The notes below the pieces were generated by a model that made no database searches, was not told where the DNA came from, and worked only from the letters and a program-made list of their open reading frames with translations. A program made the position numbers and the translations under genes. Below, in pieces: positions 1 to 15,150 of a stretch of DNA of 32,839 bases (positions are counted from its first letter, which is position 1; each line of letters begins with the position of its first letter). This DNA comes from a virus: positions 1 to 32,839 of the IMG/VR virus record IMGVR_UViG_3300037146_000068. One strand, given 5' to 3'.

Positions 1-2
1 TA

Positions 3-920
3 TTTAATGCCGGTGGTTTCTGGGTGCTTAACAGCGGAACGACGACTAGCGCCATTGGCAACAAAGCCTATGCGAACAATTCTACCGGACAGATTTCGTT
101 CGGCGTTACCGGTTCGCCTCCGACTTCCGGCTCCGCGACTTCCGCGACTGTCGTTAAGAATATTTCCGCATCAACCGGCGCAGCAATCCCGGCAACAGGC
201 CCTTCGTTCACTGGTTCGATTGCAGGGCAGACATTGACTGTCACGGCAATCGCTTCCGGCACGGTACTTGGCGCAGGCCAAGTGATTTCCGGCGGGCCTA
301 CAGCGAATCCTGTCGATCCGAACACGACGATTACCGGTTTTGTCAGCGGCACAAACGGCGGCGTCGGTGTCTATACCGTCAATATTTCGCAAAACGTCGC
401 TTCCGGCACGATCACGGCTTCGGGCGGCTGCATGACGCTAACCGGCGCAAACACTTCCGGCATCTTCGCTGTCGGGAATGCATTATCCGTAGCCGCAAGC
501 GGTTCGTTGACTGCCGGGACAACGATTACAGCGTTGATATCGGCAACTGCGGGCGGCGCCGGCACTTACCTGCTTAATCAGCCTGCCGCAACGGCTGTCA
601 CTGCCGGAACGATCACATCGACTAATACCTCGCTGCTAACGGTCGATTCTTCTTCGACGGGGACGTGGGCGATAAACGACCAGCTGACTGGCGGCGCAAA
701 CATCCCTTCGGCTGCGCCGTATTCGTACATTTTGGCGACGGGCGCGACGAACCCGAACTTGACCGGTCTTGGCGGCGCAGGAACATATCTTGTGTCGCAA
801 TCGTACACGTTCGCGTCGGGAACAGTCACTGTCGATATTGGCGTCGAAACGAAATGGGTTGCAAGTTCAATCGGTGCGCCGGGTGAACTTGTCAAGATGA
901 CAAGTTATCTCAACGGCTAA
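3..920 (+). CDS. Capsid cement/decoration protein, C-terminal part (5' truncated)
   Basis: The frame is open from the left edge of the window, so the start lies outside; a GTG at 24 is internal. The first visible residues (FNAGGFWVLNSG, then a GNKAYANNSTGQISFG stretch) resemble the C-terminal half of small phage structural cement proteins (Gp24-like), which sit on the outer capsid surface and stabilise it. Its place directly before the major capsid gene fits. After about 35 residues of cement-like sequence the protein continues with three copies of a Gly/Thr/Ser-rich beta-type module (213-416, 426-617, 627-833), then returns to cement-like sequence (ETKWVASSIGAPGELVKMTS) at the C-terminus. 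The modules therefore interrupt the cement fold near its end. Cement identity is by recognition; the module function is unknown. Confidence 0.7.
   Translation, partial: FNAGGFWVLNSGTTTSAIGNKAYANNSTGQISFGVTGSPPTSGSATSATVVKNISASTGAAIPATGPSFTGSIAGQTLTVTAIASGTVLGAGQVISGGPTANPVDPNTTITGFVSGTNGGVGVYTVNISQNVASGTITASGGCMTLTGANTSGIFAVGNALSVAASGSLTAGTTITALISATAGGAGTYLLNQPAATAVTAGTITSTNTSLLTVDSSSTGTWAINDQLTGGANIPSAAPYSYILATGATNPNLTGLGGAGTYLVSQSYTFASGTVTVDIGVETKWVASSIGAPGELVKMTSYLNG
213..416 (+). repeat. Dispersed module copy A1 (in cement protein)
   Basis: In-frame copy of the pattern GSIxGxTLTVxxIxSGTVxxGQVISG - TTITxxxSGTxGGxGxYTV - SQxVASGTI. The same pattern recurs in three other virion genes of this window. 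This copy has a longer middle (TANPVDPN). Confidence 0.75.
426..617 (+). repeat. Dispersed module copy A2 (in cement protein)
   Basis: A diverged copy directly after A1. It keeps TAGTTITALISATAGGAGTY and the closing AGTIT, but the opening [10 protein letters not shown] part is degraded to GCMTLTGANTSGIFAVGN. Confidence 0.6.
627..833 (+). repeat. Dispersed module copy A3 (in cement protein)
   Basis: The most diverged copy in this gene. It keeps LLTVDSSSTGTWAINDQLTGG, GLGGAGTYLVSQ and the closing ASGTVTV. Confidence 0.5.
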
Positions 921-951
921 TCAATTAAACTTACTTAAAAAGGACATTATC

Positions 952-2064
952 ATGCTTGCATTTGATTCCGCAAAACCGGTTTACGACCAATCGCCTGAAT
1001 GGCAGCGCGCCGCAATTGCGGAACACAAGCGCGTCTTTGGTATCGACACGGGCGCAGAAAGATTTTTGCGCCCGGAATATCGCGATGACTACAGGCTTGC
1101 ATTCGACGCGCAGCCGCAGCTGGTTTCTACACCGTCGTCTGGCGTTCCTGCGTGGCTAACGTATTATCTCGATCCCGATTTGCTTCGAGTGTTGACCGCG
1201 AAACTGGAAGCCGCCGATATTTTCGGCGAACAGCAAAAAGGCTCGTGGGAATCGACAACGTTGATTTTCAGTGTCGTTGAACGGACATATGAAACAAAAG
1301 CGTACGGCGATTACGACGAAGGCGGAACGAGCGGCATCAACGCCAACTTCCCAGAACGTCAACCGTTCCTTTTTCAAACGATGGCTCGCTATGGCAATCT
1401 GGAAATTGAACGCATGGGCTTGGCAAAAATCGGGTTCGTCGCGGAACAAAAAGCCGCAGCCATTTTCGGACTCGACAACTTCACCAACCTGACATACTTT
1501 AAGGGTGTGGCTGGATTGAACAACTACGGAGCATTGAACGACCCTAACTTGCCTGCTGCAATCGCTCCTGCTCCAAAGGCGGCTGGAGGCATTGCGTGGA
1601 TGTCGGGGACGACCGTTACCGCGACCGCGAATGAAATTTTTACGGATATTCAATCCCTCGTCATTCAATCGATTAATCAATCGGACGGTCAGATTAATTT
1701 GAAATCGAAGTTTATATTGGCTTTGTCGCCTGCTAGAGAAGGCGCTATGACCGCGACGAACACGTTCAACGTTAACGTTTCGGATTTGCTGAAAAAGAAT
1801 TTTCCGAACTTGGAAGTGAAAACAGCCATTCAATACGGTGCTGTGACCGCACAAAATAACCAAGGCAGCGCGCTTGGTGAAGTGATGCAATTATGGTGCC
1901 CAGAAGCGGCTGGTCAAAAGTCAGGGTATTGCGTGTTCAATACCAAACTAAAATCCGGCCCTGTCATTGTAAATTCTTCGTCGTTTAAGCAAAAAATGAT
2001 TTGTGGTTCGGCAGGCTTTTTGCTTCGCCAGCCATGGGCAATGGCTACGATGGTAGGTTTGTAG
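952..2064 (+). CDS. Major capsid protein (DUF2184-like)
   Basis: A 370-residue protein encoded just after the cement gene and before the head-tail connector genes, the usual place for the major capsid protein. Sequence such as YYLDPDLLRVL, the KGSWESTTLIFSVVE region, YDEGG.SGINANFPERQPF and a C-terminal QPWAMATMVGL resembles DUF2184 phage capsid proteins found in Burkholderia-type myophages. Length is typical for an HK97-fold capsid subunit. The start is ATG with AAAAAGGA 9 bases upstream. No module insertion is seen in it, unlike the neighbouring cement, terminator and sheath proteins. Assignment combines recognition and position. Confidence 0.8.
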   Translation: MLAFDSAKPVYDQSPEWQRAAIAEHKRVFGIDTGAERFLRPEYRDDYRLAFDAQPQLVSTPSSGVPAWLTYYLDPDLLRVLTAKLEAADIFGEQQKGSWESTTLIFSVVERTYETKAYGDYDEGGTSGINANFPERQPFLFQTMARYGNLEIERMGLAKIGFVAEQKAAAIFGLDNFTNLTYFKGVAGLNNYGALNDPNLPAAIAPAPKAAGGIAWMSGTTVTATANEIFTDIQSLVIQSINQSDGQINLKSKFILALSPAREGAMTATNTFNVNVSDLLKKNFPNLEVKTAIQYGAVTAQNNQGSALGEVMQLWCPEAAGQKSGYCVFNTKLKSGPVIVNSSSFKQKMICGSAGFLLRQPWAMATMVGL

Positions 2065-2077
2065 GGGTTTAGGAAAC

Positions 2078-2094
2078 ATTAAAGCAGCTTTAAT
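2078..2094. repeat. 17-bp near-palindrome in late-gene gap
   Basis: Arms ATTAAAGC / GCTTTAAT around a single A. Close relatives of this palindrome lie in the gaps at 4731-4743 and 13143-13159. It could be a protein-binding site or a small RNA hairpin; it is not followed by a U-run. Confidence 0.4.
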
Positions 2095-2122
2095 CGTAGT
2101 TGAAATCACAAGGGGCATCAAA

Positions 2123-2626
2123 ATGAGTAGAGAAACATTAGGTCTGCGGACGCTGGACAATTTGAAGGCGACCGACAACAGCAAACTTACTGGCGGCGCA
2201 ACGGTAACAATCGCGAGTAAGTTTCCTTTCCCGTTCATTCTGCAATTGCACGACTGGCGCGAATACGATCAACCTGTGCTTGGTGGTGGCGTGCGCCGCG
2301 TGAAAGAGTCGATGAAGCGGATATCCGCGAAACCCGTAACAATCGACGGCGCTTCCTGGGCGCAAAATAAAGGCCCGCATCAACAATTGGCTAATGGCTA
2401 TGCGATTACGCATGGCGTGCCAAAAGCATTTTGGGATGAGTGGCTGGAACAAAACAAAGAGGCGGAATTCATCGCGAATGGTATGATTTTTGCGCGCGAT
2501 GACGTCGCAAGCGCGATTTCGCAGACCAATGAAATGAAAGATGTCAAGTCCGGCCTTGAACGCTGCAACCCAGCCGACACGCATCGCCACGGCTTTGCGC
2601 CTTACACCGGGAACGCTGCGGACTGA
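2123..2626 (+). CDS. Conserved phage protein of unknown function, head-tail region
   Basis: A 167-residue soluble protein between the capsid gene and the DUF4054-like connector. The middle reads as a compact globular domain (PFPFILQLHDWREYDQPV, then KPVTIDGASWAQNKGPHQ, HGVPKAFWDEWLEQNKEAEF) ending in a polar tail. No catalytic motif is visible. Genes of this type occur at this position in related myophages, but I cannot assign a role. The start is ATG with AAGGGG upstream. It could be a minor head or neck component. Confidence 0.7.
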   Translation: MSRETLGLRTLDNLKATDNSKLTGGATVTIASKFPFPFILQLHDWREYDQPVLGGGVRRVKESMKRISAKPVTIDGASWAQNKGPHQQLANGYAITHGVPKAFWDEWLEQNKEAEFIANGMIFARDDVASAISQTNEMKDVKSGLERCNPADTHRHGFAPYTGNAAD

Positions 2627-2628
2627 TT

Positions 2629-3123
2629 ATGCAAAGCCAGCCGGTGGTGTTTTCGTATCAAAATTGGAGTGCGCGGTACCCTGAATTGGCCGCGTCCGTC
2701 AATTCTGTGCAAGCTGGCATGTTTTTTATGGAAGCGCAGCTTTATTGCGATAACACCTGCACAAGCATTATCGACAATTGCCCTCCTGCATTTGCGAGAG
2801 CTACATTTTTGAACCAGCTAACGGCACATATCGCTGCGTTGAATGCGCCGTTAGCAAATCCTGTCAATGGACAAGTAACGCCATCTTCGCCGCTCGTCGG
2901 GCGCATTGCGACAGCGACCGAAGGCAGCGTGACAGTCAACACCGACAACCAATTTCCGCCAGGTACGCCGCAATGGTATCAGCAGACAAAGTATGGCGCA
3001 GCGTTCTGGGCTGCAACAACAAAATATCGAACAATGCGGTATGTCCCCGGCCCGCGCAACGTGCCGAACCCATGGCAGGGCGGCTATCCCTTCGGTGGGT
3101 TCAACGGATTCGGGCGCAAATGA
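2629..3123 (+). CDS. DUF4054-like head-tail connector protein
   Basis: A 164-residue protein starting two bases after the previous stop. It has the DUF4054 layout: an early FxxRYPEL segment, a helical FMEAQLYCDNTCTSII part, LTAHIAAL at about residue 64, GRIATATEGSVTV in the middle, and WYQQTKYGAAFWAATTKY towards the end. The family is regarded as a head-tail adaptor of myo- and siphophages, forming part of the neck. The glycine-rich C-terminus (WQGGYPFGGFNGFGRK) is also typical. Order (capsid, unknown, DUF4054, gp10/gpG-like, unknown, terminator) supports the call. Confidence 0.75.
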   Translation: MQSQPVVFSYQNWSARYPELAASVNSVQAGMFFMEAQLYCDNTCTSIIDNCPPAFARATFLNQLTAHIAALNAPLANPVNGQVTPSSPLVGRIATATEGSVTVNTDNQFPPGTPQWYQQTKYGAAFWAATTKYRTMRYVPGPRNVPNPWQGGYPFGGFNGFGRK

Positions 3124-3124
3124 C

Positions 3125-3631
3125 ATGTCTGCCTTTAAGTTTTCGGGCGGCGCAAAGCTCGCGGAAAAACTCAAAGAACTGGCCGCTCTCGCAAATAAGG
3201 ACGCTTTAGTGAAAGTCGGATTTTTCGAGGGTGCGACGGAAACTAAATCCGGCGTTTCGACGGCATATGTCGCGGCATGCAACGAATTTGGAGGGCAATC
3301 CAATCCAGAGGATAAAGATTCCGAACCGAACCCTCCTCCCCGGCCGTTTTTTAGGGGAATGATTAAAGACGGACAAAATCATTGGGGCGAAGACATGGCG
3401 AAGGCGCTTGAGAGATATTCGGGGGATGTGGACTTAGCTATGGAATTCATGGGGCAACAACTTGGCGAAGAATTGCAAAATTCAATTCAAAAAAGACGCT
3501 ACGCGCCTCTTTCTCCGAAAACGATAGCTAGAAAAAAGAACGACCAAACGCTTATCGACACTGGCGACATGTCAAACGCAGTGTCGTTTCAGGTGAACGA
3601 CGGCGAAATTGTTCCTGTGAAAGACCAGTAA
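3125..3631 (+). CDS. Virion morphogenesis / neck protein (HK97 gp10- or Mu gpG-like)
   Basis: A 168-residue protein. The start is placed at the ATG at 3125, overlapping the previous stop region; an upstream in-frame ATG at 2993 would run deep into the preceding gene. The pattern is that of tail completion proteins: a basic helical N-terminus (LAEKLKELAAL), VKVGFFEGAT, AACNEFGG, then PPPRPFFRGMI and a C-terminal APLSPKTIARKK - LIDTGDMSNAVSF. The 'NEFGG...PPRPFFR' and 'LIDTGDM' motifs are hallmarks of the gp10/gpG group, which acts at the head-tail junction. Confidence 0.75.
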   Translation: MSAFKFSGGAKLAEKLKELAALANKDALVKVGFFEGATETKSGVSTAYVAACNEFGGQSNPEDKDSEPNPPPRPFFRGMIKDGQNHWGEDMAKALERYSGDVDLAMEFMGQQLGEELQNSIQKRRYAPLSPKTIARKKNDQTLIDTGDMSNAVSFQVNDGEIVPVKDQ

Positions 3632-4014
3632 TGAATCTGCATAGTATTGCTGCCGGATATATCTCTGCGGTAAATCCGCCATTGCTATGCCAGCTGCAAC
3701 CGTCGAACGGCTACACGGTTGCGGAAGACGGCACGCAAGTGCCGAGCTATGGAAACTGTGTCGATATTTTTTGCCAGGTGCAGGCGCTGCAATACAACGA
3801 TTTGATGCAAACGAATGGATTGAATATCCAGGGGCGCAGGCTTGCCGCCTATATTTTTGGAGACTGGGAAGGCGTCGTTCGTAGCGAGAATAAAGGCGGC
3901 GATCTTGTAACGCTCCCAGACGGATCGGTATGGCTTTGCGCGATGGTGTTAGAGCCTTGGGCGCTTTCTGCTGGATGGACTAAAATTTGTTTAACGCTTC
4001 AAAACGGGAGTTGA
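3631..4014 (+). CDS. Hypothetical head-tail joining protein
   Basis: A 127-residue protein whose ATG overlaps the previous stop (TAATG), so translation is probably coupled. It starts with [17 protein letters not shown] and contains a beta-rich middle ([19 protein letters not shown]) and a C-terminal [26 protein letters not shown]. Genes with this beginning (short protein starting 'LHxIAxGxIxAVNP') are common between gpG-like and terminator genes in myophages, but I know of no proven function. A neck or stopper role is inferred from order only. Confidence 0.65.
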
Positions 4015-4015
4015 C

Positions 4016-4729
4016 ATGTCGATCTCCCTAAGCATTACGGAAACGCAAATTTTCACGACCCTAAGAAATTTTCTGATTTCAATCTTACCGACAGGAACGC
4101 CTGTTATTCGCGCTCAAACGAACCGCGTTCCCGAACCGGCAAACACAAATTTCGTTACGATGACGCCGCTGTTCCAAGAGCGGATGGCAACGAACATCGA
4201 GGGGTTAGTAGAAACATTGTTTGCCGGTTCGATCAGCGGAACAACGCTGACGATATCAAGCATAACGACAGGCACTGTCGCAATTGGATCGCAGATTTAC
4301 GGCCCTAACGTCGCGGCAGGCACGATTATTACAGCGCTAGGAACCGGAACAGGCGGCACTGGCACGTACACGGTAAATAATTCGCAGAGCGTCGCTGGCA
4401 GCACGATGCAAGCAGGAACATCGCAAGTTGAGCAAACAACGCAAGTGACAATTCAGCTTGATGTTCATGGTCCTGCAAGCGCAGATAACGCGCAAATCAT
4501 CTCGACCCTATTTCGAGATCAATACGGAACGAATTTTTTCGAGATGAGCGGATTTAATCTTGACGCGCTTTACACAAGCGATCCGAAACAAATGCCGTTT
4601 ATCAACGGCGAACAGCAATTTGAGGAACGGTGGACGATAGATGTCATGCTAGAGGCGAACGCTATCGTAACCATTCCTCAGCAATTTGCGATTGCGTTGG
4701 GGCCTGTCGTATTGCACGATGTCGAGTGA
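4016..4729 (+). CDS. Tail/neck terminator protein, gp12-like, with module insertion
   Basis: A 237-residue protein. The N-terminal part ([18 protein letters not shown], then [23 protein letters not shown]) and the C-terminal part ([25 protein letters not shown]-like region, [21 protein letters not shown]) match the phage neck terminator (LIC_12616-like) family, which caps the tail. Residues about 71-133 are a copy of the dispersed module found in other virion genes. It falls between the '[12 protein letters not shown]' and '[11 protein letters not shown]' strands, where family members normally run on directly. I infer a surface-loop insertion that leaves the core fold intact. Confidence 0.7.
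4226..4414 (+). repeat. Dispersed module copy B (in tail terminator)
   Basis: A near-consensus copy: [60 protein letters not shown]. At DNA level the first 29 bases match copy D1 (14254) at 26 positions. A 53-base stretch near its end matches copy C (sheath) at about 45 positions, counted by eye. Confidence 0.8.
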
Positions 4730-4730
4730 T

Positions 4731-4743
4731 TAAAGTTACTTTA
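4731..4743. repeat. 13-bp near-palindrome after terminator gene
   Basis: Arms TAAAGT / ACTTTA around one T, immediately after the stop codon at 4727-4729. Related to the palindromes at 2078-2094 and 13143-13159. Confidence 0.35.
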
Positions 4744-4753
4744 TAGGTTAAGC

Positions 4754-4780
4754 AACCCGCCGCGTGCGGGTTTTATTTTT
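4754..4780 (+). terminator. Rho-independent terminator before the sheath gene
   Basis: Stem AACCCGC / GCGGGTT (7 bp) with a 5-base loop, followed by a T-rich tail ending in ATTTTT. It lies between the tail terminator gene and the sheath gene; the sheath Shine-Dalgarno (GGAGAA) begins right after it. It may lower read-through from the head genes or serve as a 5' end for sheath mRNA. Confidence 0.75.
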
Positions 4781-4791
4781 GGAGAAACAAC

Positions 4792-6552
4792 ATGGCAGCA
4801 TCGATTCCAGCTTCGTTTTTTGCGAATGTCAACACTGCTGTAATAAGCGCAGGCGGCGCGGGAATCAATCTTAGCGGATTGTTTCTGACGAATAGCAGCC
4901 GCATTCCTATCGGTCAAGTGTTAACTTTTTCTTCTGCCGCGAATGTCGGGGCGTATTTTGGATTGTCGTCGAACGAATTCAATCAATCCGAGGTGTATTT
5001 CGCCGGAAACACAGGATCGTTTCAGAAACCTGCTGCGCTTCTTTTCGCGCAATACAACACAGTCGCCACTCCTGCATGGCTACGTGGCGGCAATGTGTCG
5101 TCGTTGACTTCCGCGCAGTTGGAAGCGCTGTCCGGCACGTTGATGCTGGAAGTGAATGGCGTTTGGAAAACATCCAGCGCGATCAATTTGAGTTCTTACG
5201 GAACTTTTTCCGCTGCTGCTGCGTATATCCAATCGGAATTTGCCGCGTTCGTTGGCACTGTAACTTACGACAGCGTTTCCGGCGGTTTTCTTTTTACGAC
5301 GACTGCTACCGGCGCAAGCGAAACGATTACGACTGCGATAAGCGGCACGGCGACCTCGACGACCAGCACGACGACCGGAACGGTATTAACAATTTCCGGC
5401 ACGGTTGTCGGCACGTATCACGTTGGCGATGTCGTGACGGGAACGGACGGCACGAATTCGTTGCCTGTCGGAACGACAATTACCGCGCTAGGAACTGGCA
5501 CAGGCGGCGCTGGCACTTACACGATCAGCGCAGCAGCTACTCCGAGTAATTTGGCGTCTAGCGCTGTCGATGCGTTCGGGCCTTTGGGCGCGTTCACGGT
5601 CGGTCTTGGATTGACAACCGCGACAGGCGCGATTGTGTCGGCTGGCGCTGCCGCTCCGACGTCTTCGACGCCAAATGCGTTTATGACGGCGTTGGCACAG
5701 CAAACGTCGAATTGGGTTTCTTTCACCACGTTGTTCGATCCAGATGGCGGTTCCGGCAACACGATAAAGCAAGAATTCGCTGCATGGGTAACGCTTCAAG
5801 ACAATCAATTCGCTTATGTTGCGTGGGACACCGACATCACCCCTACCGAATCGACCGACGCAGCATCGTCGCTCGGACAAATCCTAAAAGCGAATGGCAA
5901 TTCGGGGACGATCCTTATTTATGAGCCGTCAGATTTAAGCTTGGCCGCGTTTGAAATGGGATTTATCGCGTCGATAGATCAGACGCAAACGAACGGAAAT
6001 TCTTCCGCAGCGTATAAATCTCAGGCAGGGATTTCACCGGCGGTCAGCAGCGAAACTGTGTTAGCGAATTTGATTGCAAACGGTTACAACACTTATGTTG
6101 CTGCCGCAAATCGCACGAACCAATGGCAGTTCTTCTATCCGCAAACGATCACGGGAACGTTCGGCACGATTGAACGTTACATCAATCAAATCATCATGCA
6201 AGCTGGATTCCAAACCGGAATGATGACGCTGCTGACTACAGAAACCGCTATCCCTTATGTGCCCGCCGGATATGCGCTAATAGAAGCTTACTTGCAGCCC
6301 ACGATTGACGCGGCCTTGACGTTTGGCGCGATTCAGCCCGGCGTGAACTTGTCTGCTGCGCAAATCGCAACGGTAAATAGTCAGGCCGGAAAGAACATTG
6401 GAACGACATTGGCAACTCGCGGTTGGTATTTGCAAGTGCTTGATCCAGGCTCTGTCGTGCGCGGCAATGGCGGAAGTCCATCCATTACTTTTTGGTGGAC
6501 GGACGGCGGGAGCGTCTTGAATCTAAACATGTCCGCCTTCGACGTGGAATAA
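4792..6552 (+). CDS. Tail sheath protein (DUF3383-like) with module insertion
   Basis: A 586-residue protein with ATG behind GGAGAA. The N-terminus (SIPASFFANVNTAVISAGG, then LSGLFLTNSSRIP and VGAYFGLSSNEF) and later parts (QTSNWVSFTTLFDPDG, NQFAYVAWDTD, YNTYVAAANRTNQWQFF, the C-terminal SPSITFWWTDGGSVLNLNMS) match the DUF3383 sheath family of contractile tails. The sheath subunits polymerise around the tube and contract. At about residues 194-257 a copy of the dispersed module is inserted in the domain that normally projects outward (between the SETITTA and LGLTTATGAIVS segments). The tube gene follows directly, as expected. Confidence 0.85.
   Translation: MAASIPASFFANVNTAVISAGGAGINLSGLFLTNSSRIPIGQVLTFSSAANVGAYFGLSSNEFNQSEVYFAGNTGSFQKPAALLFAQYNTVATPAWLRGGNVSSLTSAQLEALSGTLMLEVNGVWKTSSAINLSSYGTFSAAAAYIQSEFAAFVGTVTYDSVSGGFLFTTTATGASETITTAISGTATSTTSTTTGTVLTISGTVVGTYHVGDVVTGTDGTNSLPVGTTITALGTGTGGAGTYTISAAATPSNLASSAVDAFGPLGAFTVGLGLTTATGAIVSAGAAAPTSSTPNAFMTALAQQTSNWVSFTTLFDPDGGSGNTIKQEFAAWVTLQDNQFAYVAWDTDITPTESTDAASSLGQILKANGNSGTILIYEPSDLSLAAFEMGFIASIDQTQTNGNSSAAYKSQAGISPAVSSETVLANLIANGYNTYVAAANRTNQWQFFYPQTITGTFGTIERYINQIIMQAGFQTGMMTLLTTETAIPYVPAGYALIEAYLQPTIDAALTFGAIQPGVNLSAAQIATVNSQAGKNIGTTLATRGWYLQVLDPGSVVRGNGGSPSITFWWTDGGSVLNLNMSAFDVE
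5371..5562 (+). repeat. Dispersed module copy C (in tail sheath)
   Basis: Contains [40 protein letters not shown] and TISAAATPSNLASS. It lacks the opening GSISGTT, which is replaced by a Thr/Ser run (TATSTTSTTTGTV). The 3' half is about 85% identical to copy B in DNA by eye. Confidence 0.75.
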
Positions 6553-6579
6553 ATCGAATTTATTTTAAGGATACTAGCC

Positions 6580-7020
6580 ATGGCACTCGGAACTCTGACC
6601 GCAGCAAACGCAATTATCATGTTGACGGTTCCAAACTATTACCCGAACCCTCAACAGTTGCAGGGATTCGCTGCTGACGACGTGTATGACTCGGAAGAGG
6701 TCGAAATCGCTGAAACGTCCATGGGCGTCGATGGAATCTTGTCGGCAGGTTTGATCTATGCCGAATTGCCATGGACGCTTGCGTTGCAATCGAACTCGCC
6801 TTCGATTCAAATTCTGGACAATTTGATTCAGGCGCAGTTTGCGCAAAACGATCTATTTCCAGGAATTTCCGTCTCAGTGACATTGACAGGGCTTGGGATT
6901 AAATACCAATTGACAAACGGATATTTGAAGAAAGCGCCTCCGTTGCCAAGCGCAAAAAAGATTCTTCAGCCGCGCAAATTTTACTTCGTCTTTAACGGCT
7001 CGTCGCCAGCGACATCTTAA
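6580..7020 (+). CDS. Tail tube protein
   Basis: A 146-residue protein right after the sheath gene, with AAGGA upstream of its ATG. Beginning MALGTLTAANAIIMLTVPNYYPNPQQLQGF and ending KKILQPRKFYFVFNG, it resembles the DUF3277-type tube proteins that pair with DUF3383 sheaths. It has the beta-rich, Phe/Tyr-bearing composition and length expected of a gp19-fold tube subunit, which stacks as hexamers around the DNA channel. Identification rests on family resemblance and on the conserved sheath-tube order. Confidence 0.75.
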   Translation: MALGTLTAANAIIMLTVPNYYPNPQQLQGFAADDVYDSEEVEIAETSMGVDGILSAGLIYAELPWTLALQSNSPSIQILDNLIQAQFAQNDLFPGISVSVTLTGLGIKYQLTNGYLKKAPPLPSAKKILQPRKFYFVFNGSSPATS

Positions 7021-7027
7021 CAAGTTT

Positions 7028-7082
7028 CGCACGGCACCGGGAAACCGGGCCGACTTACACCCCTTGGGTCGGTGGCCGTGCG
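7028..7082 (+). promoter_or_regulatory. Three-way-junction RNA element upstream of tail chaperone gene
   Basis: The gap after the tube gene can fold compactly. The outer stem CGCACGGC (7028-7035) pairs perfectly with GCCGTGCG (7075-7082). Inside are CCGG-GAAA-CCGG (7037-7048), a 4-bp hairpin capped by a GNRA tetraloop, and CCGAC (7050-7054) pairing with GTCGG (7068-7072) around a 13-base loop. No U-run follows, so it is not a plain terminator. The region is non-coding. Function is unknown; leader control of the next gene is an inference. Confidence 0.5.
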
Positions 7083-7097
7083 AATTCGTGAAAGGGG

Positions 7098-7114
7098 CGA
7101 ATCAAGGGGATTCG
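7098..7114 (+). promoter_or_regulatory. Hairpin presenting the Shine-Dalgarno of the tail chaperone gene
   Basis: CGAATC (7098-7103) pairs with GATTCG (7109-7114), leaving AAGGG as a five-base loop. This is the ribosome-binding sequence for the ATG at 7117, which starts two bases after the hairpin. The structure could limit or time initiation. A second purine run (AAAGGGG, 7091-7097) lies just upstream and could act as a standby site. Confidence 0.5.
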
Positions 7115-7116
7115 AC

Positions 7117-7560: not shown

Positions 7561-7727
7561 ATCTTCCTCCGACCATCGGAGCGATGATTTCCAGCGGAAA
7601 AATGACGTTGCATGAGATGCAAACTATTTACTCGTTGGAAGACGTATATTTGACGTTGGAAGTGTTGAGTATCGACGCATATAACCGCAAGACAATTGCA
7701 GAAGCAGAAGCGAGAAGAAAGCGTTAA
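7117..7727 (+). CDS. Tail assembly chaperone, long -1 frameshift fusion (about 203 aa)
   Basis: Reading to the slippery A AAT TTT at 7491-7497 (127 residues) and then shifting -1 gives a further 76 residues ending at 7727: FKTRRHLNIDHDGG, then VNLPPTIGAMISSGKMTLHE, MQTIYSLEDVYLTLEVLS and a basic C-terminus. The downstream frame has no own Shine-Dalgarno/start near the overlap. It has the look of the 'T' part of G/GT chaperones, which recruits tube protein. In tailed phages a short/long chaperone ratio set by frameshifting is needed for tail assembly. Confidence 0.8.
7491..7538 (+). promoter_or_regulatory. Programmed -1 ribosomal frameshift signal
   Basis: A slippery heptamer A AAT TTT (7491-7497, in the zero frame gcA AAT TTT) is followed by a six-base spacer and a perfect 10-bp stem: CCCGCCGTCA (7504-7513) with TGACGGCGGG (7529-7538), loop 15 bases. 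The zero frame ends at 7560 and the -1 frame stays open to 7727. Confidence 0.85.
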
Positions 7728-7731
7728 TAAA

Positions 7732-9993
7732 ATGGCGACCATCATCGATAGTCTTCTAGTGGAATTAGGCCTCGACTCTTCTGGAATGTCAAAAGGCGTT
7801 TCGGAAGCCAAACGCGCTTTCGATGCGGTTAAGCGCGAAGCGGAAGAAGCTGCGCAGGCATTTAAGCAAGAACAAGCGGCAATGAAAGGCTCTTTTGAGG
7901 CGCAGACTGCCGCTGCCGTGAAACAGGGGAAAATAACGGCAGGTCAAGGAAAACAACAGCTAAACGATTTCAAAGAAAATCAACGGCAACAAGCGTTTCA
8001 GTTTTCGCGCACGCAAAAAGATAAAATTGCCGAAGCGCAGCGTAATCTCGCGCAAACGAAGTCGATGGTTAAGCAAGAGTCGGACGCAAAAACCAAGGCG
8101 GCAAAAGCGCAAGACGCGCAAGCGAAGTCGATGGTCGAAGGGATATCTCACATCCGCACGGAAGTTATCGGGCTGATTGCCGGTTTTTTAGGGCTGGCCG
8201 CGATTAAAAGTTTCGGCGAACATATCATTGGCGTCGATGGAGACGTACAGCGCCTGTCTGGAACGATAGGCGTTTCGACGACCGATTTAAATGCGTGGGC
8301 TATTGCCGCATCGGATTTTGGGGCGACTGGGGCGCAGGTTGAAGGTGCTTTCCGGGCTGTAAATAAAATTCAGGAAGGGCTGGCAAAAGGCGACGTTGGA
8401 TCGGTTGAAGCGCTGACCGAGTATGCAAAAACGATGTCCGCATTAGGCGGCGCACACGTTGAGACGAACGTTCTTGCCGCGCCGAATTTGACGCAACAAG
8501 AGTTCCTTTTGCAACTTGCGAAAGAATCGCAACAAGTCAGTGAAAAAGTGTTTGCTCAGAGCGTGGCAAAGCTTGGTATCGACGAGAACGTTGCGCGTGC
8601 TTTGCACTCGGGAAATGTTGAGCTTGCCAAACAGCTTCAGTCGGCAAAGGAGCTTGCAAAAGACAATGACAAAGCGAGCGCAGCTTCGTTAGCAATGCAA
8701 AAACGCTGGAACCAAACGTTGATCCATGTCAAAGCGTTAGGGGAAACGATTCTTGTCGCTGTCCTTCCTGCGATAAATTCCGTGTTGGACGCGATAGACG
8801 GCTTGATAAAGTTCGCCACGGATGGATGGGGCGCAATGACCGGCGACATGAAAGAAAAGCTTGGCGGCGTAAAAGAAAAGCTTGGCGGCGTAAAAGAAAA
8901 GCTTGGCGATGTGTCGTCCGTCTTTGCAGAAATAAAAACCTTTATTGCTAGCAATAAAGGTTTCATTTCTGCATTGTTCACAGGCAACGGCGAAGACATT
9001 CGCAAAGCGTGGAACGCGATGTGGGACAATTTTATTATTCTTGCAAAAGATGCTGCACCAAAGATTGCCGACGTGATTAAAGAAGCTTTAGCCGGGGCGC
9101 TCGGTTGGATTGAAGATCGCGCTTCAGCGATTTGGGACGCGGCTACCGGGCAACATACGCAAGAAGCGAATCGCAAAAAACGCGAAACTGCTTACGCAAA
9201 ATACAAAGAAGCGAACCGGACGCCGGAACAGGCGCAAGCCGAACTAAAATCATACCAGGATCAAAACGCAGCAATTTTGGCTGGCGGAAAAGGAACGGGC
9301 GCTTCGGCTGTCAACATTCGCCCTTCATTCGGCGCGTCGAAGCCGACACGTGCCGATGCGCAAGCTGCGGCAGATGCTGCGGAAAAGAAATACGGCGTCC
9401 CTGCTGCCGTGACGCTCGCCCAGTATCAATTGGAAAGCAACAGCGGAAAGAATATGCCTGCAGGCAGCAACAATCCTTTCGGCATAAAAGCGAAAGGCGG
9501 GCAGCCGTATGTGGAAGCGGAAACGACTGAATATATAAACGGGCAAATGCAGCATGTGAAGCAGAAATTTGCGAAATTCGATTCGTTGGAAGATGCATTC
9601 GATGCGCACGCGGAATTGCTCGCAACGGATGCGGCATATTCGGAAGCGCGAAAGCATACCGACGATCCTAAAGCCTATGCGGATGCGTTGACGGGAAAGT
9701 ACGCAACCGACCCCGAATATGGCGCAAAGTTGAAAAGCATTATGTCGTCGGATGCAAGGTCGGCGATGCCTCCTATCGACAAGGGTGTGATTTCCGGCGC
9801 GCAATCAAGCGTGGTGAACAATCAGGCGCTCAATAATCGCGTAGCGAATAACAACGCGCAGATACAAACAAACGTTGGCTCCGTGAACATTAATGCGCCA
9901 AACGCAAAAACGAACGCGGACGTAGCGTCATTGATCGGAGAACGCATGCAAGACTTTTCTATCGCGTCGATGGCAAATTCAGGACTTGCGTAA
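7732..9993 (+). CDS. Tape measure protein with internal glucosaminidase domain
   Basis: A 753-residue protein; ATG at 7732 is chosen over an ATG at 7696 inside the chaperone frame. Residues 1-130 are a charged, Ala/Gln-rich coiled-coil region (GVSEAKRAFDAVKREAEE onwards). Two hydrophobic stretches follow (around EVIGLIAGFLGLAAI and ETILVAVLPAINSVLDAI). Residues about 538-672 form a FlgJ/glucosaminidase-type domain: AEKKYGVPAAVTLAQYQLES, NNPFGIKAKGG, then FDSLEDAFDAHAELLATD; Glu568 in QYQLES is the expected catalytic acid. Such domains open peptidoglycan during DNA injection. With the usual ~1.5 A per residue rule the tail would be about 110 nm. It carries a 3x21-bp repeat and a 28-bp palindrome. 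Confidence 0.85.
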   Translation: MATIIDSLLVELGLDSSGMSKGVSEAKRAFDAVKREAEEAAQAFKQEQAAMKGSFEAQTAAAVKQGKITAGQGKQQLNDFKENQRQQAFQFSRTQKDKIAEAQRNLAQTKSMVKQESDAKTKAAKAQDAQAKSMVEGISHIRTEVIGLIAGFLGLAAIKSFGEHIIGVDGDVQRLSGTIGVSTTDLNAWAIAASDFGATGAQVEGAFRAVNKIQEGLAKGDVGSVEALTEYAKTMSALGGAHVETNVLAAPNLTQQEFLLQLAKESQQVSEKVFAQSVAKLGIDENVARALHSGNVELAKQLQSAKELAKDNDKASAASLAMQKRWNQTLIHVKALGETILVAVLPAINSVLDAIDGLIKFATDGWGAMTGDMKEKLGGVKEKLGGVKEKLGDVSSVFAEIKTFIASNKGFISALFTGNGEDIRKAWNAMWDNFIILAKDAAPKIADVIKEALAGALGWIEDRASAIWDAATGQHTQEANRKKRETAYAKYKEANRTPEQAQAELKSYQDQNAAILAGGKGTGASAVNIRPSFGASKPTRADAQAAADAAEKKYGVPAAVTLAQYQLESNSGKNMPAGSNNPFGIKAKGGQPYVEAETTEYINGQMQHVKQKFAKFDSLEDAFDAHAELLATDAAYSEARKHTDDPKAYADALTGKYATDPEYGAKLKSIMSSDARSAMPPIDKGVISGAQSSVVNNQALNNRVANNNAQIQTNVGSVNINAPNAKTNADVASLIGERMQDFSIASMANSGLA
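8851..8913 (+). repeat. Three tandem 21-bp units in the tape measure gene
   Basis: Two identical units and one near-identical unit encode KEKLGGV KEKLGGV KEKLGDV. In-frame heptad-length units in a tape measure can change tail length by slippage. Confidence 0.85.
8936..8963. repeat. 28-bp perfect palindrome inside the tape measure gene
   Basis: AAACCTTTATTGCT followed by its exact reverse complement; as RNA a 12-bp stem with CUAG loop. It lies in the coding sequence (KTFIASNKGF), just downstream of the 21-bp repeats. Confidence 0.6.
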
Positions 9994-11123
9994 TGGCTTT
10001 AGCTCCGCCTCCCCCTCCCCCAGACGATCCTAGCGTAGCGGCTTACAATCCGTCCTACCCAGACGTGCCCATCGCGGCAGGCGTTCCGAACGTTTTGCGG
10101 ACGCTTTTAGCGCCTGCCGGAAGCGTTGCAAATAGCCTGGCGAACATCGGGATAGGCGCGGCGCAATTGCCGAGTGGCATTGTGACGAACGCACAGCTAG
10201 CAACGGTAAATGGCGCGCAGAGCTTGATAGCTGGCGCATACGGCACATTGCCGTCGCAGATGTTTGCGGACGCGCCTGGAGTTGTTGCTGCCGCCAACTC
10301 CAGCGCTGGACAATGGGGAATATTCGCCGCAGGCACGACGAACATCGTTTTGACGCCGGATTCGTTTAAGTCGTTGAACTACAAGCAAGGGTGGAGAATC
10401 GCTAACTACCCAATGGAGCAGGGGGCGTTTCAATCCTACAATAAAGTCCAAACCCCTTTCGAGGTTAAAGTTGCTTTCACAAAAGGCGGCGGCGACAGCG
10501 AGCGAACAAATTTCTTATCCACTCTAGCGACTTTGGCGAATTCGTTTGATCTATACGATGTGGTAACGCCAGAAATTACTTATTCAAATGTATCGATTGA
10601 AAGTTATGACTACGTTCGCACGGCAATAAACGGCGCAAAATTGCTGACGGTAGATATTTCACTGCTGCAAATAAGGCTGGCCGCAGCAGCAAACTTTACG
10701 AACACAGCGACGCCTAGCGGCTCAGGCACGGTGAACGGCGGCATTGTTCAGCCGATTCCTGTAACTACAGGCCCGAATTTAGCTCCAGACGGAAATCCAA
10801 CTAGCGCAGCGCAATCAGCCAGCGGGGAAGTTGCTCCTCCAACATCTGTTGCTCCTCCAGAGGCAGTGCCTCCCGCAGCAGCAGCAGCAGTAACGAGCAG
10901 TCAAACTCCTGCTGTATCAGCAACGCCGCCAGCATTTGACGATAAACTTAGGGATGCAAACGGAAACATTGTCACTCCAACCGCAGTGAATCCACTTACG
11001 GGACGCACTCAGACCGCGAACGGATACTTTCAGGTCAACCCAAACACAGGGCATTTAATGCAATACGACAAGGACGGGAGTGTCGTTAAAATTGCGTCGC
11101 CTGCCGATGACGCAATTCAATAG
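9993..11123 (+). CDS. Dit-like baseplate/tail protein
   Basis: A 376-residue protein overlapping the tape measure stop (TAATG at 9991-9995). After a proline-rich start (APPPPPPDD), the middle of the protein has the N-terminal Dit-like pattern seen in many proteobacterial myophages: WRIANYPMEQGAFQSYNKV, FEVKVAFTKGGGDSERTNFL, LYDVVTPEITY, YDYVRTAINGAKLLTVDISL and LLQIRLA. Such proteins form the ring joining tube and baseplate. The last 130 residues are a Pro/Ala/Ser-rich linker followed by a small repeat-like end (GNIVTPTAVNPLTGRTQTAN), probably flexible. Confidence 0.65.
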   Translation: MALAPPPPPPDDPSVAAYNPSYPDVPIAAGVPNVLRTLLAPAGSVANSLANIGIGAAQLPSGIVTNAQLATVNGAQSLIAGAYGTLPSQMFADAPGVVAAANSSAGQWGIFAAGTTNIVLTPDSFKSLNYKQGWRIANYPMEQGAFQSYNKVQTPFEVKVAFTKGGGDSERTNFLSTLATLANSFDLYDVVTPEITYSNVSIESYDYVRTAINGAKLLTVDISLLQIRLAAAANFTNTATPSGSGTVNGGIVQPIPVTTGPNLAPDGNPTSAAQSASGEVAPPTSVAPPEAVPPAAAAAVTSSQTPAVSATPPAFDDKLRDANGNIVTPTAVNPLTGRTQTANGYFQVNPNTGHLMQYDKDGSVVKIASPADDAIQ

Positions 11124-11159
11124 CTTGCGATTCATTTACAGATTCGTGGAAGACGACAA

Positions 11160-11474
11160 ATGCAAATCGTTCCGATACAAGATGTTTTTTCACAAACCCT
11201 GACGTGCAGTTTGACTCAGCAGAATTGTAAGATAAACATCTATCAAAACGCATTCGGTCTGTTTATGGACTTATACGTTAATGCGGTTTTGATTATCGGC
11301 GGCGTGATTTGCGAAGATCGAAACAGAATCGTTCGAGATTTGTATCTCGGTTTTGTTGGCGATTTTACCTTTATCGATACGCAAGGGTCAAACGACCCGA
11401 GCAGCCCAGGGCTTGGAACGCGATACTTGTTATGCTATATCGATCCATTCGACCTTGCGCCAGGAGAAGGTTGA
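11160..11474 (+). CDS. Baseplate plug protein (Pam3 gp18-like)
   Basis: A 104-residue protein between the Dit-like and hub genes. The pattern of a short beta protein with NIYQNAFGLFMDLYVNAVLI, IGGVICEDRNRIVRDL and FIDTQGSNDPSSPGLGTRYL matches the small 'baseplate plug' family described from cyanophage Pam3-type simple contractile tails. There it fills the space between the hub and the tail tube. A short, Cys-containing N-terminus (TCSLTQQNC) precedes the domain. The gene order (Dit-like, plug, hub, spike, gp25, J) is the standard one. Confidence 0.6.
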   Translation: MQIVPIQDVFSQTLTCSLTQQNCKINIYQNAFGLFMDLYVNAVLIIGGVICEDRNRIVRDLYLGFVGDFTFIDTQGSNDPSSPGLGTRYLLCYIDPFDLAPGEG

Positions 11475-11477
11475 AAA

Positions 11478-12380
11478 ATGGCGTTCACAAACAAGCAAAT
11501 CAGCCTGACGTTCACGCTAGGCACCGGCAGTTTCGGTGAAGCCGGCGATAATCAGGTGACGGTGACAGGGCTGCGGATTTCGGCGAAAATCGTTAAAACA
11601 GGTTACGCAGGAATGTCCATGTGCGAACTGCGCGTTTTCGGGCTGCCACCGACCGTGTACAACTCTTTGGTCTCGATTTATTCGACGCCGCAATATGCGC
11701 AAAGAAACACAATCGCAGTCAGCGCCGGGGATTCTTCCACAGCTATGTCCCAAGTATTTATCGGACAGATTCAAATAGCGCAAATCGACTTGAATTCTCA
11801 ACCGAATAGCATATTAACCGTCGTTGCGCAATCTTGCTTATTGCAGGCGTTGCAACCGACAGTGCCGTTAAGCTATCCCGAAGGAATTTCCATCGCGTCC
11901 ACGATGAATACGATTGCGGGAGTCATGGGATTAAGATTTGAAAATAATGGCGTGACAGGCATTTTGCCGAAACAATATTTGCCGGGAACGCCAAGACAGC
12001 AAGCATTAACGGTCATCAAGGCATCCGGGATTAAATGGAATGGCGGCGATGACGGAGTGTTGGCGATTTGGCCTGCAACCGGCAGCCGCACGTCGCTAGA
12101 TTTAATTCCTACAATTTCGTATGAGGACGACTTGATCGGATATCCATCTTACTCGAATATCGGGATCGGAATTAAAACGAGGTACAATCCGAACGTGCAA
12201 TATGGCGGTCAAGTGACTTTAGTCAGCAGTCTGAAGGTGACAGGCATGAACGGAAACTGGACGGTGTACGGGCTTGCGCATACGCTGGAAAGCGAAATGC
12301 CAGACGGTCAATGGATGACTGAAATTCAAGGCGCAAATTACAGCTTGTTAGGCGCGCCCACTCCACCGAGCTCGCTATGA
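11478..12380 (+). CDS. Baseplate hub protein
   Basis: A 300-residue protein beginning three bases after the plug stop, with AGGAGAAGG in the end of the previous gene as ribosome site. It has the alternating beta pattern of small gp27/gpD-like hubs: VTVTGLRISAKIVKTGYAGM, MCELRVFGLPPTVYNSL, VFIGQIQIAQIDLNSQPNSI, then a middle YPEGISIASTMNTIAGVMGL and a C-terminal GNWTVYGLAHTLESEMPDGQ. The last motif, a 'xVxxLxHxLESExPxGxW' end, is characteristic of the family. The hub carries the spike encoded next. Confidence 0.65.
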   Translation: MAFTNKQISLTFTLGTGSFGEAGDNQVTVTGLRISAKIVKTGYAGMSMCELRVFGLPPTVYNSLVSIYSTPQYAQRNTIAVSAGDSSTAMSQVFIGQIQIAQIDLNSQPNSILTVVAQSCLLQALQPTVPLSYPEGISIASTMNTIAGVMGLRFENNGVTGILPKQYLPGTPRQQALTVIKASGIKWNGGDDGVLAIWPATGSRTSLDLIPTISYEDDLIGYPSYSNIGIGIKTRYNPNVQYGGQVTLVSSLKVTGMNGNWTVYGLAHTLESEMPDGQWMTEIQGANYSLLGAPTPPSSL

Positions 12381-13147
12381 CCGATTTTTACAACGGCTTT
12401 CAACCGAATGAAACGTTCGGGTCGAAATTCAACGCGACTCAATTTCAGATACAGCAGCTTTTGTCGCAAGTCAGAACGGCAATTCCTGTTCAAGTCCAAT
12501 CTTGCACGAATGACGGCGGATTAGCGCCGTTCGGGTTTGTCAACGTTCTGCCGCTCATCAATCAGGTTGACGGGCAAATGAATATGACGTCGCACGGCAT
12601 CATTCATAAAGTGCCGTACTGCCGATTGCAAGGTGGCGCGAACGCGATTATCATCGACCCACAGGCTGGCGACATTGGAATCATGATCGTTGCCGACCGG
12701 GATATTTCGACGCTAATCAATACGCAAGCGCAAGCGAACCCCGCGACTTTTCGGCAGTTCGATTTGTCGGACGGAATGTATATTGGCGGCATCTTAAACG
12801 CGCAGCCGACGCAATACATTCAATTCAATGATTCCGGCATCACAATTTTTTCTCCGAACAACATCACGGCGCAAACAACAGGAAACGTTACTGTGATTGC
12901 GGGAGGTAATGCGGACGTGACCGCAAGCGAATCGGCAGCCGTCACTGCGCCGACAATTACACTGACTGGAACGACGACTGTGGACGGCACGCTAACTGTG
13001 ACCGGCATGGTCTCAATGGAAGCGAATGCCTCCGTAACCGGTTCGATGATGAATAACGGAGTGGATATCGGTTCGACGCATGCGCATCCTGTAGACAACA
13101 TTCAAGGCGGCGACGATTCTGTCGAAACCGGGCCTCCTAATGAATAA
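12377..13147 (+). CDS. Baseplate spike protein (gp138/gpV-like) with His tip motif
   Basis: A 256-residue protein overlapping the hub stop (ATGA). The N-terminal OB-like domain (VQVQSCTNDGGLAPFGFVNV, LPLINQVDG, VPYCRLQGGANAIIIDPQAG, DIGIMIVADRDIS) matches Gp138_N spikes. Residues about 150-225 are short beta-strand repeats (NVTVIAGGNADVTASESAAV, TAPTITLTGTTTVDGTLTVT) forming a triple-stranded needle. The end, GVDIGSTHAHPVDN, carries an H-x-H motif of the type that binds iron at the apex of P2 gpV and related spikes. The protein pierces the outer membrane. Confidence 0.8.
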   Translation: MTDFYNGFQPNETFGSKFNATQFQIQQLLSQVRTAIPVQVQSCTNDGGLAPFGFVNVLPLINQVDGQMNMTSHGIIHKVPYCRLQGGANAIIIDPQAGDIGIMIVADRDISTLINTQAQANPATFRQFDLSDGMYIGGILNAQPTQYIQFNDSGITIFSPNNITAQTTGNVTVIAGGNADVTASESAAVTAPTITLTGTTTVDGTLTVTGMVSMEANASVTGSMMNNGVDIGSTHAHPVDNIQGGDDSVETGPPNE

Positions 13148-13159
13148 AGTGACTTTATT
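13143..13159. repeat. 17-bp near-palindrome just before the gp25-like gene
   Basis: AATAAAGT / ACTTTATT around a single G. It ends on the base before the ATG at 13160 and occupies the place of a Shine-Dalgarno, which is otherwise missing for this gene. Confidence 0.45.
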
Positions 13160-13516
13160 ATGAACACGCTTTTACTCGACAGAACATACAACGACTTGTG
13201 CATTGATTCGGACGGAAACATTGCAATGGCCAGTCTAGGTTATGCTTTGGCACAAGACGCTGCGTCGCAAATAAAGTTGTTTCAAGGCGAGTATTGGTAT
13301 GATACGACGCAAGGCATTCCTTATTTCCAGGAAATTTTAGGTATCGGTCAAACGCCACCAATCAATTTGATGAAGTCGCAATTCGTCGCGGCGGCTTTGC
13401 AAGTCCCAGGAGTCGAAGTCGCTGTTTGTTTTATCTCGTCAATTGAAAACGGACAAGTGTCCGGGCAGGTGCAGATTTCCGATTCATCCGATAACGTTTC
13501 GATAGCGAACTTCTAA
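13160..13516 (+). CDS. Baseplate wedge protein, gp25/gpW-like
   Basis: A 118-residue protein with the short gp25-like layout: an N-terminal [20 protein letters not shown], the helix [20 protein letters not shown], the motif [10 protein letters not shown], and a C-terminal [12 protein letters not shown]. The stretch resembling E-W..D...GIP is the family signature. gp25 proteins start sheath assembly on the baseplate. No Shine-Dalgarno is visible; a palindrome lies there instead, and translation may be coupled to the spike gene ending 12 bases upstream. The stop overlaps the J gene start (TAATG). Confidence 0.75.
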
Positions 13517-15150
13517 TGACAACGAACGTCCCTCCAGTTTCGCTCGGAGCGAACGGCTACATTGCGCCTGCGGAATCGGCAATCCTCGCAGGCGTGCAAG
13601 CCGACATCAATTCCGCATTCGGCAATGGGTTGAATTTTACTTCGACCGCAACGCCGCAAACGCAATTATCGGTGAGCGAGACTGCAATCATCGGAAACAC
13701 AAACGACTTACTCCTCGCCCTTTTTAATGGCGTCGATCCAGCTTTCGCTTCAGGCCGCATGCAGGACGCCATCGGGCGGATTTACTACATGACGCGCATC
13801 CCCGCAGCTAGCACGGTCGTTCAATGCACTTGCTCAGGCTTAAGTGCAACAATTCCTGTTGGCGCGCTAGCGCAAGATGTGTCTGGAAATACTTATATGT
13901 GCATGCAAGCGGGAACACTTCCTGGCGGCCCGGGAGGTGGCAGCATCGTTTTGCCGTTCGCAAACGTCGCGCAAGGCCCGATTCCGTGCCCGGAAAATAC
14001 ATTGACGACAATCGTTTCCGGCGTCAGCGGATGGGACACAATCAATAATCCAGCGGATGGCGCAGAAGGATCGCTAGTCGAAAGCAGATCGCAGTTCGAA
14101 ACGCGCCGGTTCAATTCCGTCGCAGCCAATTCACTCAACACTCCCCAATCCGTTCTCGGGACGATTCTTAATGTTGCAAATGTGTTGGGTGCTTATGTTC
14201 AAGATAATTTTTACAATTATCCTTACGCTGTCAATCCGGTATCGACGATTACGGGATCGATCAGCGGAACATCGTTGACGATCGATGCTGTTCTCTCTGG
14301 GACTGTCGCTATAGGGCAAGTTATTAGCGGGCCTGGGGTAACATACGGCACAACGATTGTTAGCGGTTCCAGCAGTCCTTATACGGTTTCCGTGAGCCAA
14401 ACGACGGCGGCGGCCATTCCGCTTCAGCTTGGAGGGGTAAGCATTGAAGCGAATACGCTTTATATAAGCGTTGCGGGGGGCACGGCGCAAGATATCGCCA
14501 ATGCGATTTGGAGCAAAAAACCGCCTGGTTGCGGACTTCAAGGCAATACGACAGAAACGGTTTATGATACAAGCTACGTCTATAGCACGCCAGGAATTCC
14601 TTATGCGATCTCGTTCGAAAACCCGCCTGATGTCGAAATATACTTTAACGTCAGTATTTATCCGTCGCCTGCCGTTCCGTCCAACGCAAGCACGTTGATT
14701 CAAAATGCGATTTTGAACGCTTTCATCGGCGGCGATGGCGGTTTGCGCATGCAAATGGAAACGTTAATTTTAACCAGTCGATATTACCAGGGGATTTACG
14801 CGCTCGGCTCGTGGGCATTAATTACCGGATTGACAATTGGAAGTTCTGCCGCGCCCGCATTTGCGATAACCGCATCAATCGCAACGACCGTTTTAACAGT
14901 GACAGCGACTGGCGGCGCGCTGGCTGTTGGGCAAGTTTTGATCGGAACAGGCGTAACGGTGGGGACGTATATTAAAGCGCAGTTGACAGGTTCCTCTGGC
15001 TCAACGGGCACGTACACGGTATCGAGTTCCCAAACCGTTGGAAGCGAATCGATGAACGTTTTGGGAATGAATGCGACAAGCATTCAAATGCTGATAAATC
15101 AAATGCCGGTGACGGCAGCGGCCAACATTAATGTGACGACTGCGACATGA
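13516..15150 (+). CDS. Baseplate J-like wedge protein with two module insertions
   Basis: A 544-residue protein. Features of the family are the N-terminal [36 protein letters not shown], the [17 protein letters not shown] segment, [18 protein letters not shown], and the middle [20 protein letters not shown] with [16 protein letters not shown]-like proteins form the wedge ring of contractile baseplates. Two copies of the dispersed module interrupt it, at residues 247-303 (between VNPVSTIT and LGGVSI) and 452-514 (near the C-terminus, before [17 protein letters not shown]). Without them the protein would be close to the usual ~420 residues. Confidence 0.8.
14254..14424 (+). repeat. Dispersed module copy D1 (in baseplate J)
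   Basis: [38 protein letters not shown], then [19 protein letters not shown]. It lacks the GTGGxGTY segment of other copies. The 5' 29 bases match copy B at 26 positions. Confidence 0.75.
14869..15057 (+). repeat. Dispersed module copy D2 (in baseplate J)
   Basis: [59 protein letters not shown]. Confidence 0.75.

Follow-up and report, generated by a model that had tools for sequence, protein, structure and literature searches.

The window analysed here, a 32,839-nucleotide stretch of viral DNA, matches part of a 62,017-base IMG/VR contig (L009) with 100% identity over the 24.8 kb compared. This comparison used two overlapping stretches, of 12.1 and 12.7 kb, which between them span window positions 1-20247. 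The window opens within the gene for a cement (capsid decoration) protein (positions 1 to 920, plus strand), whose 5' end is cut; the complete protein, encoded in L009 (8749-9966), has 406 residues. Since the full open reading frame begins earlier in L009, the GTG at window position 24 is not the start. We assigned this gene from the fold match of an AlphaFold2 model and from alignment with module-free minor head proteins. Specifically, outside the modules described below, the core of the full-length model matches the phage cement proteins of Pa193 (Z 14.2), E217 (gp24, 8frs, Z 13.0), FCWL1 (Z 14.7), and T1 (Z 14.5). Matches in the range of Z 13-15 make the identification as a cement protein sound; the third module of this protein was poorly modelled.

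Three more genes on the same strand encode proteins of the neck, tail, and baseplate. The first, at 4016 to 4729, specifies a neck tail-terminator (PF23961, E 4.5e-22, 78.8 bits against a curated cut-off of 27; phrog_1876, E 2.8e-44). It is followed at 4792 to 6552 by a contractile tail sheath (PF11863, DUF3383, E 5.3e-90, 303.1 bits against a curated cut-off of 34.9; phrog_205) homologous to gp31 of E217 (8fvg, also 8env) and at 13516 to 15150 by a J-like baseplate wedge protein (phrog_6, E 6.5e-38). An E217 gp32-type protein is encoded as well (PF22764). Judged from its encoded proteins, the phage is a contractile-tailed relative of the E217/Bcep781-type phages. The best protein matches come from Acetobacter phage phiAO1, Pantoea PA-1, Klebsiella prophages, and Bcep781, and no nucleotide match to the first 12 kb of the window was found among cultured phages. 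With E217 and Pa193 (Pbunavirus type) it shares the virion plan, a beta-tulip cement protein, the gp32 family, and the PF11863 sheath, whereas it differs in the sheath itself: both flanks of the insertion region align with the E217 sheath, which has no module between them. The tape-measure-like protein (7696-9993) contains an endolysin-type domain (phrog_3513, residues 558-730).

Seven module copies in four structural proteins

The four genes carry seven copies of one 60-71-residue module, all read from the plus strand. Three lie in the cement gene, A1 (207 to 419), A2 (417 to 620), and A3 (621 to 833), and correspond to residues 182-250, 252-312, and 318-388 of the full cement open reading frame; in the alignment, A3 is followed by the conserved last cement segment, ETKWxAxSxGAPGELVKM. 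The terminator holds copy B (4220 to 4414), the variable domain of the sheath holds copy C (5374 to 5568), and the baseplate wedge protein holds D1 at its site 1 (14248 to 14433) and D2 at its site 2 (14866 to 15060). The original prediction had placed a seven-copy module in cement, terminator, sheath, and baseplate J, and all of its copies are present, with coordinates that were off by only a few bases. A six-frame scan of the window returned nothing beyond these seven. The nearest copy to A2 is the middle one of a three-module cement protein in a prophage of Paraburkholderia elongata 5N (L122), whose terminator and sheath also have modules.

To score each copy, we compared it with a profile HMM built from the other six. 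The leave-one-out scores ranged from 26.3 to 59.5 bits (A1, 35.0; A2, 26.3; A3, 28.3; B, 59.5; C, 41.5; D1, 32.3; D2, 41.9), whereas 2000 composition-preserving shuffles per copy peaked at 8.3-15.8 bits, depending on the copy (at most 11.2, 10.1, and 15.8 for A1, A2, and A3). Because no shuffle rose above 16 bits while the real copies reached 26-60, the resemblance reflects homology and not common composition. Convergence of low-complexity beta sequence could be proposed given that Gly, Thr, Ser, Val, and Ala make up 70% of the modules, but the shuffle test, which holds exactly this composition fixed, rejects it. The order and length of the motifs are also kept, the predicted common fold is confident, and at least 330 relatives were confirmed in IMG/VR, so that convergence has practically no chance of being the explanation.

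Insertion sites, gain, and loss

All seven copies sit in gaps relative to module-free relatives of their four host proteins, with both flanks alignable. The expectation that the modules interrupt otherwise recognisable family folds thus holds: module-free relatives of all four hosts align across every site, and the comparison found no sequence in them that aligns with the modules. For the baseplate wedge protein, 87 orthologues fall into four states (34 without a module, 32 with site 2 only, 13 with both, and 8 with site 1 only), and 67 of the 68 junctions lie at core residues 247-255 or 398-403. On the baseplate tree, the two sites require at least four and at least six changes. The terminator shows a similarly fixed position: of its 24 junctions, 21 map to core residue 68. 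That site is empty in 17 of the 38 terminator orthologues, and three changes are needed on the terminator tree. Several branches of the trees are weak. Cement orthologues carry modules in 25 of 35 cases and none in the remaining 10. The array has two or three copies, except for one orthologue with a single copy, and stands before the last conserved segment.

Two observations concern terminators with unusual sites. The module-free terminators L017:4712-5332 and L034:2496-3038 retain a few additional residues, DGTFTNV, where other terminators carry the module, perhaps as a scar of module loss. The terminator open reading frames L133:4302-5243 and L135:5866-6864 contain a second module near the N-terminal end and thereby define a second site.

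The sheath is more complex. Whereas 14 of 16 junctions fall in one loop of the variable domain, copy C of the window lies in another. The sheath tree pairs the window with its closest orthologue, the module-free sheath of L078 (SH-aLRT 100), whose empty site aligns cleanly with the window sheath around copy C. Judged from this pairing, copy C looks like a newer, lineage-specific gain; its best match is 57% identical. The sheath of the Paraburkholderia prophage L122 has a module at a place similar to that in the window, which implies either two separate insertions at this site or a single one followed by repeated loss. Core numbering had suggested a third sheath site, which we dropped because, by local alignment, the Paraburkholderia prophage may carry its module at the same site as the window; on the alignments, the number of sheath sites that we claim is therefore two. 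In a separate case, the sheath of Acetobacter phage phiAO1 (L003:5220-6383) is without the entire variable domain that holds modules in other sheaths.

Inheritance of the copies

The original prediction also read the DNA similarity between copies as a sign of recent copying or gene conversion between structural genes, with the module perhaps as a recombining tile. The counts on which this idea rested, made by eye, were exact (26 of 29 bases for B and D1, 45 of 53 for B and C), and they lie above the 24 and 42 reached by the best among 60 random pairs taken from different genomes. In addition, a few Hc3 tandem pairs exceed the expected sharing of synonymous codons (z up to 3.3). Over whole copies, the data point the other way. 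DNA identity between copies of one genome reaches at most 74% for any pair, and the longest exact stretch common to within-genome pairs never exceeds 18 bases. When synonymous divergence was compared, codon sharing between paralogues (0.41, expected 0.37) was hardly above that between orthologues (0.40, expected 0.36), and all pairs within the window stayed at z of 2 or below.

Nearest-relative analysis of 184 copies from 60 dereplicated genomes gave the same answer. The nearest relative lies in the same slot of another phage for 115 of the 184 copies, where the pool predicts 15, and in the same genome for only 4, where 2.4 are expected. D1 and D2 are 76% and 79% identical to the same slots in relatives. 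As such, the copies stay put. Recent gene conversion is rejected in four ways, by identity, longest common word, synonymous codons, and nearest neighbour; these same measures largely refute the tile, and we regard ongoing exchange between structural genes of one genome as highly improbable.

Distribution, fold, and possible role of the module

To follow the module beyond the window, we scanned IMG/VR with copy B as the query and confirmed at least 330 relatives; the seven-copy alignment is too divergent to drive a scan of the collection. The loci compared contain 460 modules in 278 open reading frames of 179 loci, and 31 loci come from bacterial genomes, some with the same set of module-bearing phage genes. 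Masked clustering combined with PHROG annotation identified as hosts the Hc3 head closure protein (53 loci), an SU10-type adaptor (50 loci), and cement, terminator, sheath, baseplate wedge, collar, tail fibre, tail, and other virion proteins. Among predicted viral structures, further carriers are a P22 gp10-like protein, an HK97 major capsid protein, and side tail fibres. Outside these phages, the giant virus Indivirus ILV1 has a collagen-repeat protein (BFVD A0A1V0SCQ2) with a stretch that is 52% identical to the module and shares its predicted fold.

Cultured phages gave few matches. A tblastn search of phage records with copy B alone returned nothing, and a more typical copy found only the Sinorhizobium phages phiLM21 and phi3LM21 plus one weak partial match; a plasmid search gave one partial match. 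When 74 copies were scanned against Pfam and NCBIfam, no model for the module was found among matches up to E 1, and PF16190 (E1_FCCH) in particular is absent from all 74 to that threshold, occurring elsewhere in the host protein of L076. Two PHROG families do match the copies at E below 1e-3 (phrog_21413, 74 of 74; phrog_38233, 71 of 74) and contain the module at about 386-479 and 542-628, but these are whole-protein families, one unannotated and one of tail fibres, and neither defines the domain or its other hosts. We found no earlier description of the domain in the searchable open-access literature, a scope that most subscription journals fall outside. By these sequence comparisons, the module is a domain that is widespread, has no curated model, and was inserted time and again into outer virion proteins. 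Common in uncultured phages, rare in cultured-phage records, and missing from Pfam and NCBIfam, it marks an annotation gap and merits a Pfam entry.

AlphaFold2 predicts a confident all-beta domain (pLDDT 95.9, pTM 0.83). Among solved structures, the closest is 8eci, the entry for Arthrobacter phage Bridgette, in which a 124-residue chain matches with TM 0.72 and Z 6.9, a middling score over 61 aligned residues (residues 10-75, 28% identity, E 0.013); this chain may be similar to the module in predicted fold, and it is a separate chain rather than an insert. The next matches, at Z of about 6, are the N-terminal barrels of F1-ATPase and domain II of translation factors (EF-Tu/SelB), small beta-barrels with mostly 3-19% identity and an unrelated context, so that the likeness is one of fold only. 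These middling structure scores would speak for a small-barrel arrangement, not for kinship. The original prediction had raised the question of surface beta-sandwiches; the model is all-beta, but as far as these comparisons reach it does not look like a typical Ig-type sandwich, the nearest structures being small barrels and the Bridgette chain. Antibody chains in the list of structure matches reach a TM of only about 0.25, although a fold missing from such a list is not thereby excluded, and no Ig, Big, or FN3 model of Pfam or NCBIfam matches any of the 74 copies up to E 1. A sequence search of solved structures with the module profile gave chance matches only. In composition, charged residues make up 3.0% of the modules versus 12.6% of the rest of the host proteins, and 21% of residues are Thr; conservation centres on Gly and Thr positions plus a single Tyr and a single Gln, which nearly all of the 74 aligned copies retain.

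We also compared which virion proteins carry the module within the same loci. It is present in 21 of 37 terminators, 17 of 58 sheaths, 46 of 76 baseplate J proteins, and 3 of 36 collars, and in these loci it is absent from the major capsid protein (0 of 45), Neck1 (0 of 33), tube (0 of 63), tape measure (0 of 42), hub (0 of 81), and spike (0 of 80). The positive rates are inflated because many loci were picked for holding a module, but the zeros come from the same loci and are a fair contrast. Shell proteins are not wholly exempt, given that one BFVD protein with the module is named HK97 major capsid protein. The prediction that one domain would decorate head, tail, and baseplate proteins expected to face outward is borne out by this list of hosts; from the carrier proteins and their homology to E217, we infer that the modules are exposed in the assembled particle.

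Altogether, we lean towards the reading that the module is an autonomous domain that was inserted into outer proteins, is inherited slot by slot, and most likely acts as an outward spacer or weak adhesion surface. The copies represent one all-beta domain of about 65 residues, rich in Thr and Gly and almost free of charge, inserted in frame at a few insertion-tolerant places: as an array of two or three in the cement protein, in the neck terminator, in the sheath, and in the baseplate wedge. In other phages, the same domain is found in collar, Hc3, adaptor, fibre, and other outer proteins. After insertion, each copy is mostly inherited in its slot, with occasional gain and loss and with no homogenisation between genes. 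As an outward spacer, the domain would cover head, neck, sheath, and baseplate alike with a neutral surface that interacts weakly, so that the whole particle probably has one outer surface chemistry, and this surface could serve multivalent, low-affinity contact with extracellular polysaccharide or particle surfaces. A neutral, Thr-rich surface also fits pure spacing, reinforcement between subunits, or tolerance of an insert.

Under reinforcement, the modules would touch adjacent subunits and thereby strengthen shell, neck, and tail, in the manner of cement proteins and of domains inserted in tail tubes. It is consistent with the two- or three-copy arrays in a genuine cement protein, with the inserted beta-sandwich domain that girds the tail tube of phage YSD1 (PMC7385642), and with the closest solved match, which is a chain of the entry for Bridgette, a phage reported to have dimeric cement proteins (PMC13033339). 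That match is middling, however. Moreover, the number and presence of modules vary freely among relatives, which would be odd for load-bearing contacts, and the same domain occurs in proteins of differing symmetry and geometry. We consider this explanation unlikely.

Quite unlikely, in our judgement, is that the module is a neutral passenger, a well-folding domain spread by recombination that gathers in insertion-tolerant loops and does the phage no service. Patchy gain and loss at fixed sites would be expected of such a passenger, as would the wide divergence of the copies outside their Gly/Thr/Tyr/Gln core. Confinement to outer proteins argues against it, though tolerance alone may explain that confinement. 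Conservation is a further objection: orthologues in the same slot are 76-79% identical and the core G, T, Y, and Q are kept in nearly all 74 copies, which implies that most copies are under constraint.

The spacer or adhesion role that we favour resembles that of a better-known group of domains. Accessory Ig-like domains were recognised on phages by 2006, and what they do is still debated. They, too, are a single family of accessory beta domains that recurs in several unrelated virion surface proteins, and their surface display, possible weak carbohydrate binding, and frequent dispensability may by analogy extend to the module (for tailed phages, Fraser et al. 2006, cited in PMC9853417 and PMC8718954). 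The two differ in that the module matches no Ig-type model and has a predicted fold nearer to small beta-barrels. In addition, the modules are internal insertions at fixed sites in cement, neck, sheath, and baseplate proteins of one phage, whereas tail-tube Ig-like domains are mostly C-terminal additions (PMC8718954). Domain mosaicism of phage structural proteins has been described mostly for receptor-binding, baseplate, and endolysin proteins (PMC10684548). The module is thus a second domain with this habit, apparently of another fold. Because it entered four proteins of one particle at defined sites, each with natural empty-site relatives, it lends itself to clean comparisons of what such surface domains contribute to a virus outside its host.

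The E217 virion contains 180 cement and 204 sheath copies (PMC10329688). Should these copy numbers apply, a particle of the phage studied here would carry roughly 540 plus 204 modules on its head and sheath. A broader proposal, which we put forward tentatively as a possibility, is that environmental tailed phages of different morphotypes share a barrel-like outer tile on head, neck, sheath, baseplate, and fibres, and with it a repeated neutral surface. If this were true, hundreds of module copies per particle would govern diffusion and sticking outside the host.

Several other open reading frames of the window were noted. Two extremely glycine-rich ones lie 3' of the baseplate genes (17808-18728 and 21479-22594) and may encode fibre or tip proteins. 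On the minus strand, the frame at 27096-27986 reads as a DNA cytosine methyltransferase, judged by eye from its translation, and that at 31142-32122 encodes 326 residues with many near-identical 20-residue repeats (QLPQGCTIGGSAFLRGYDH).
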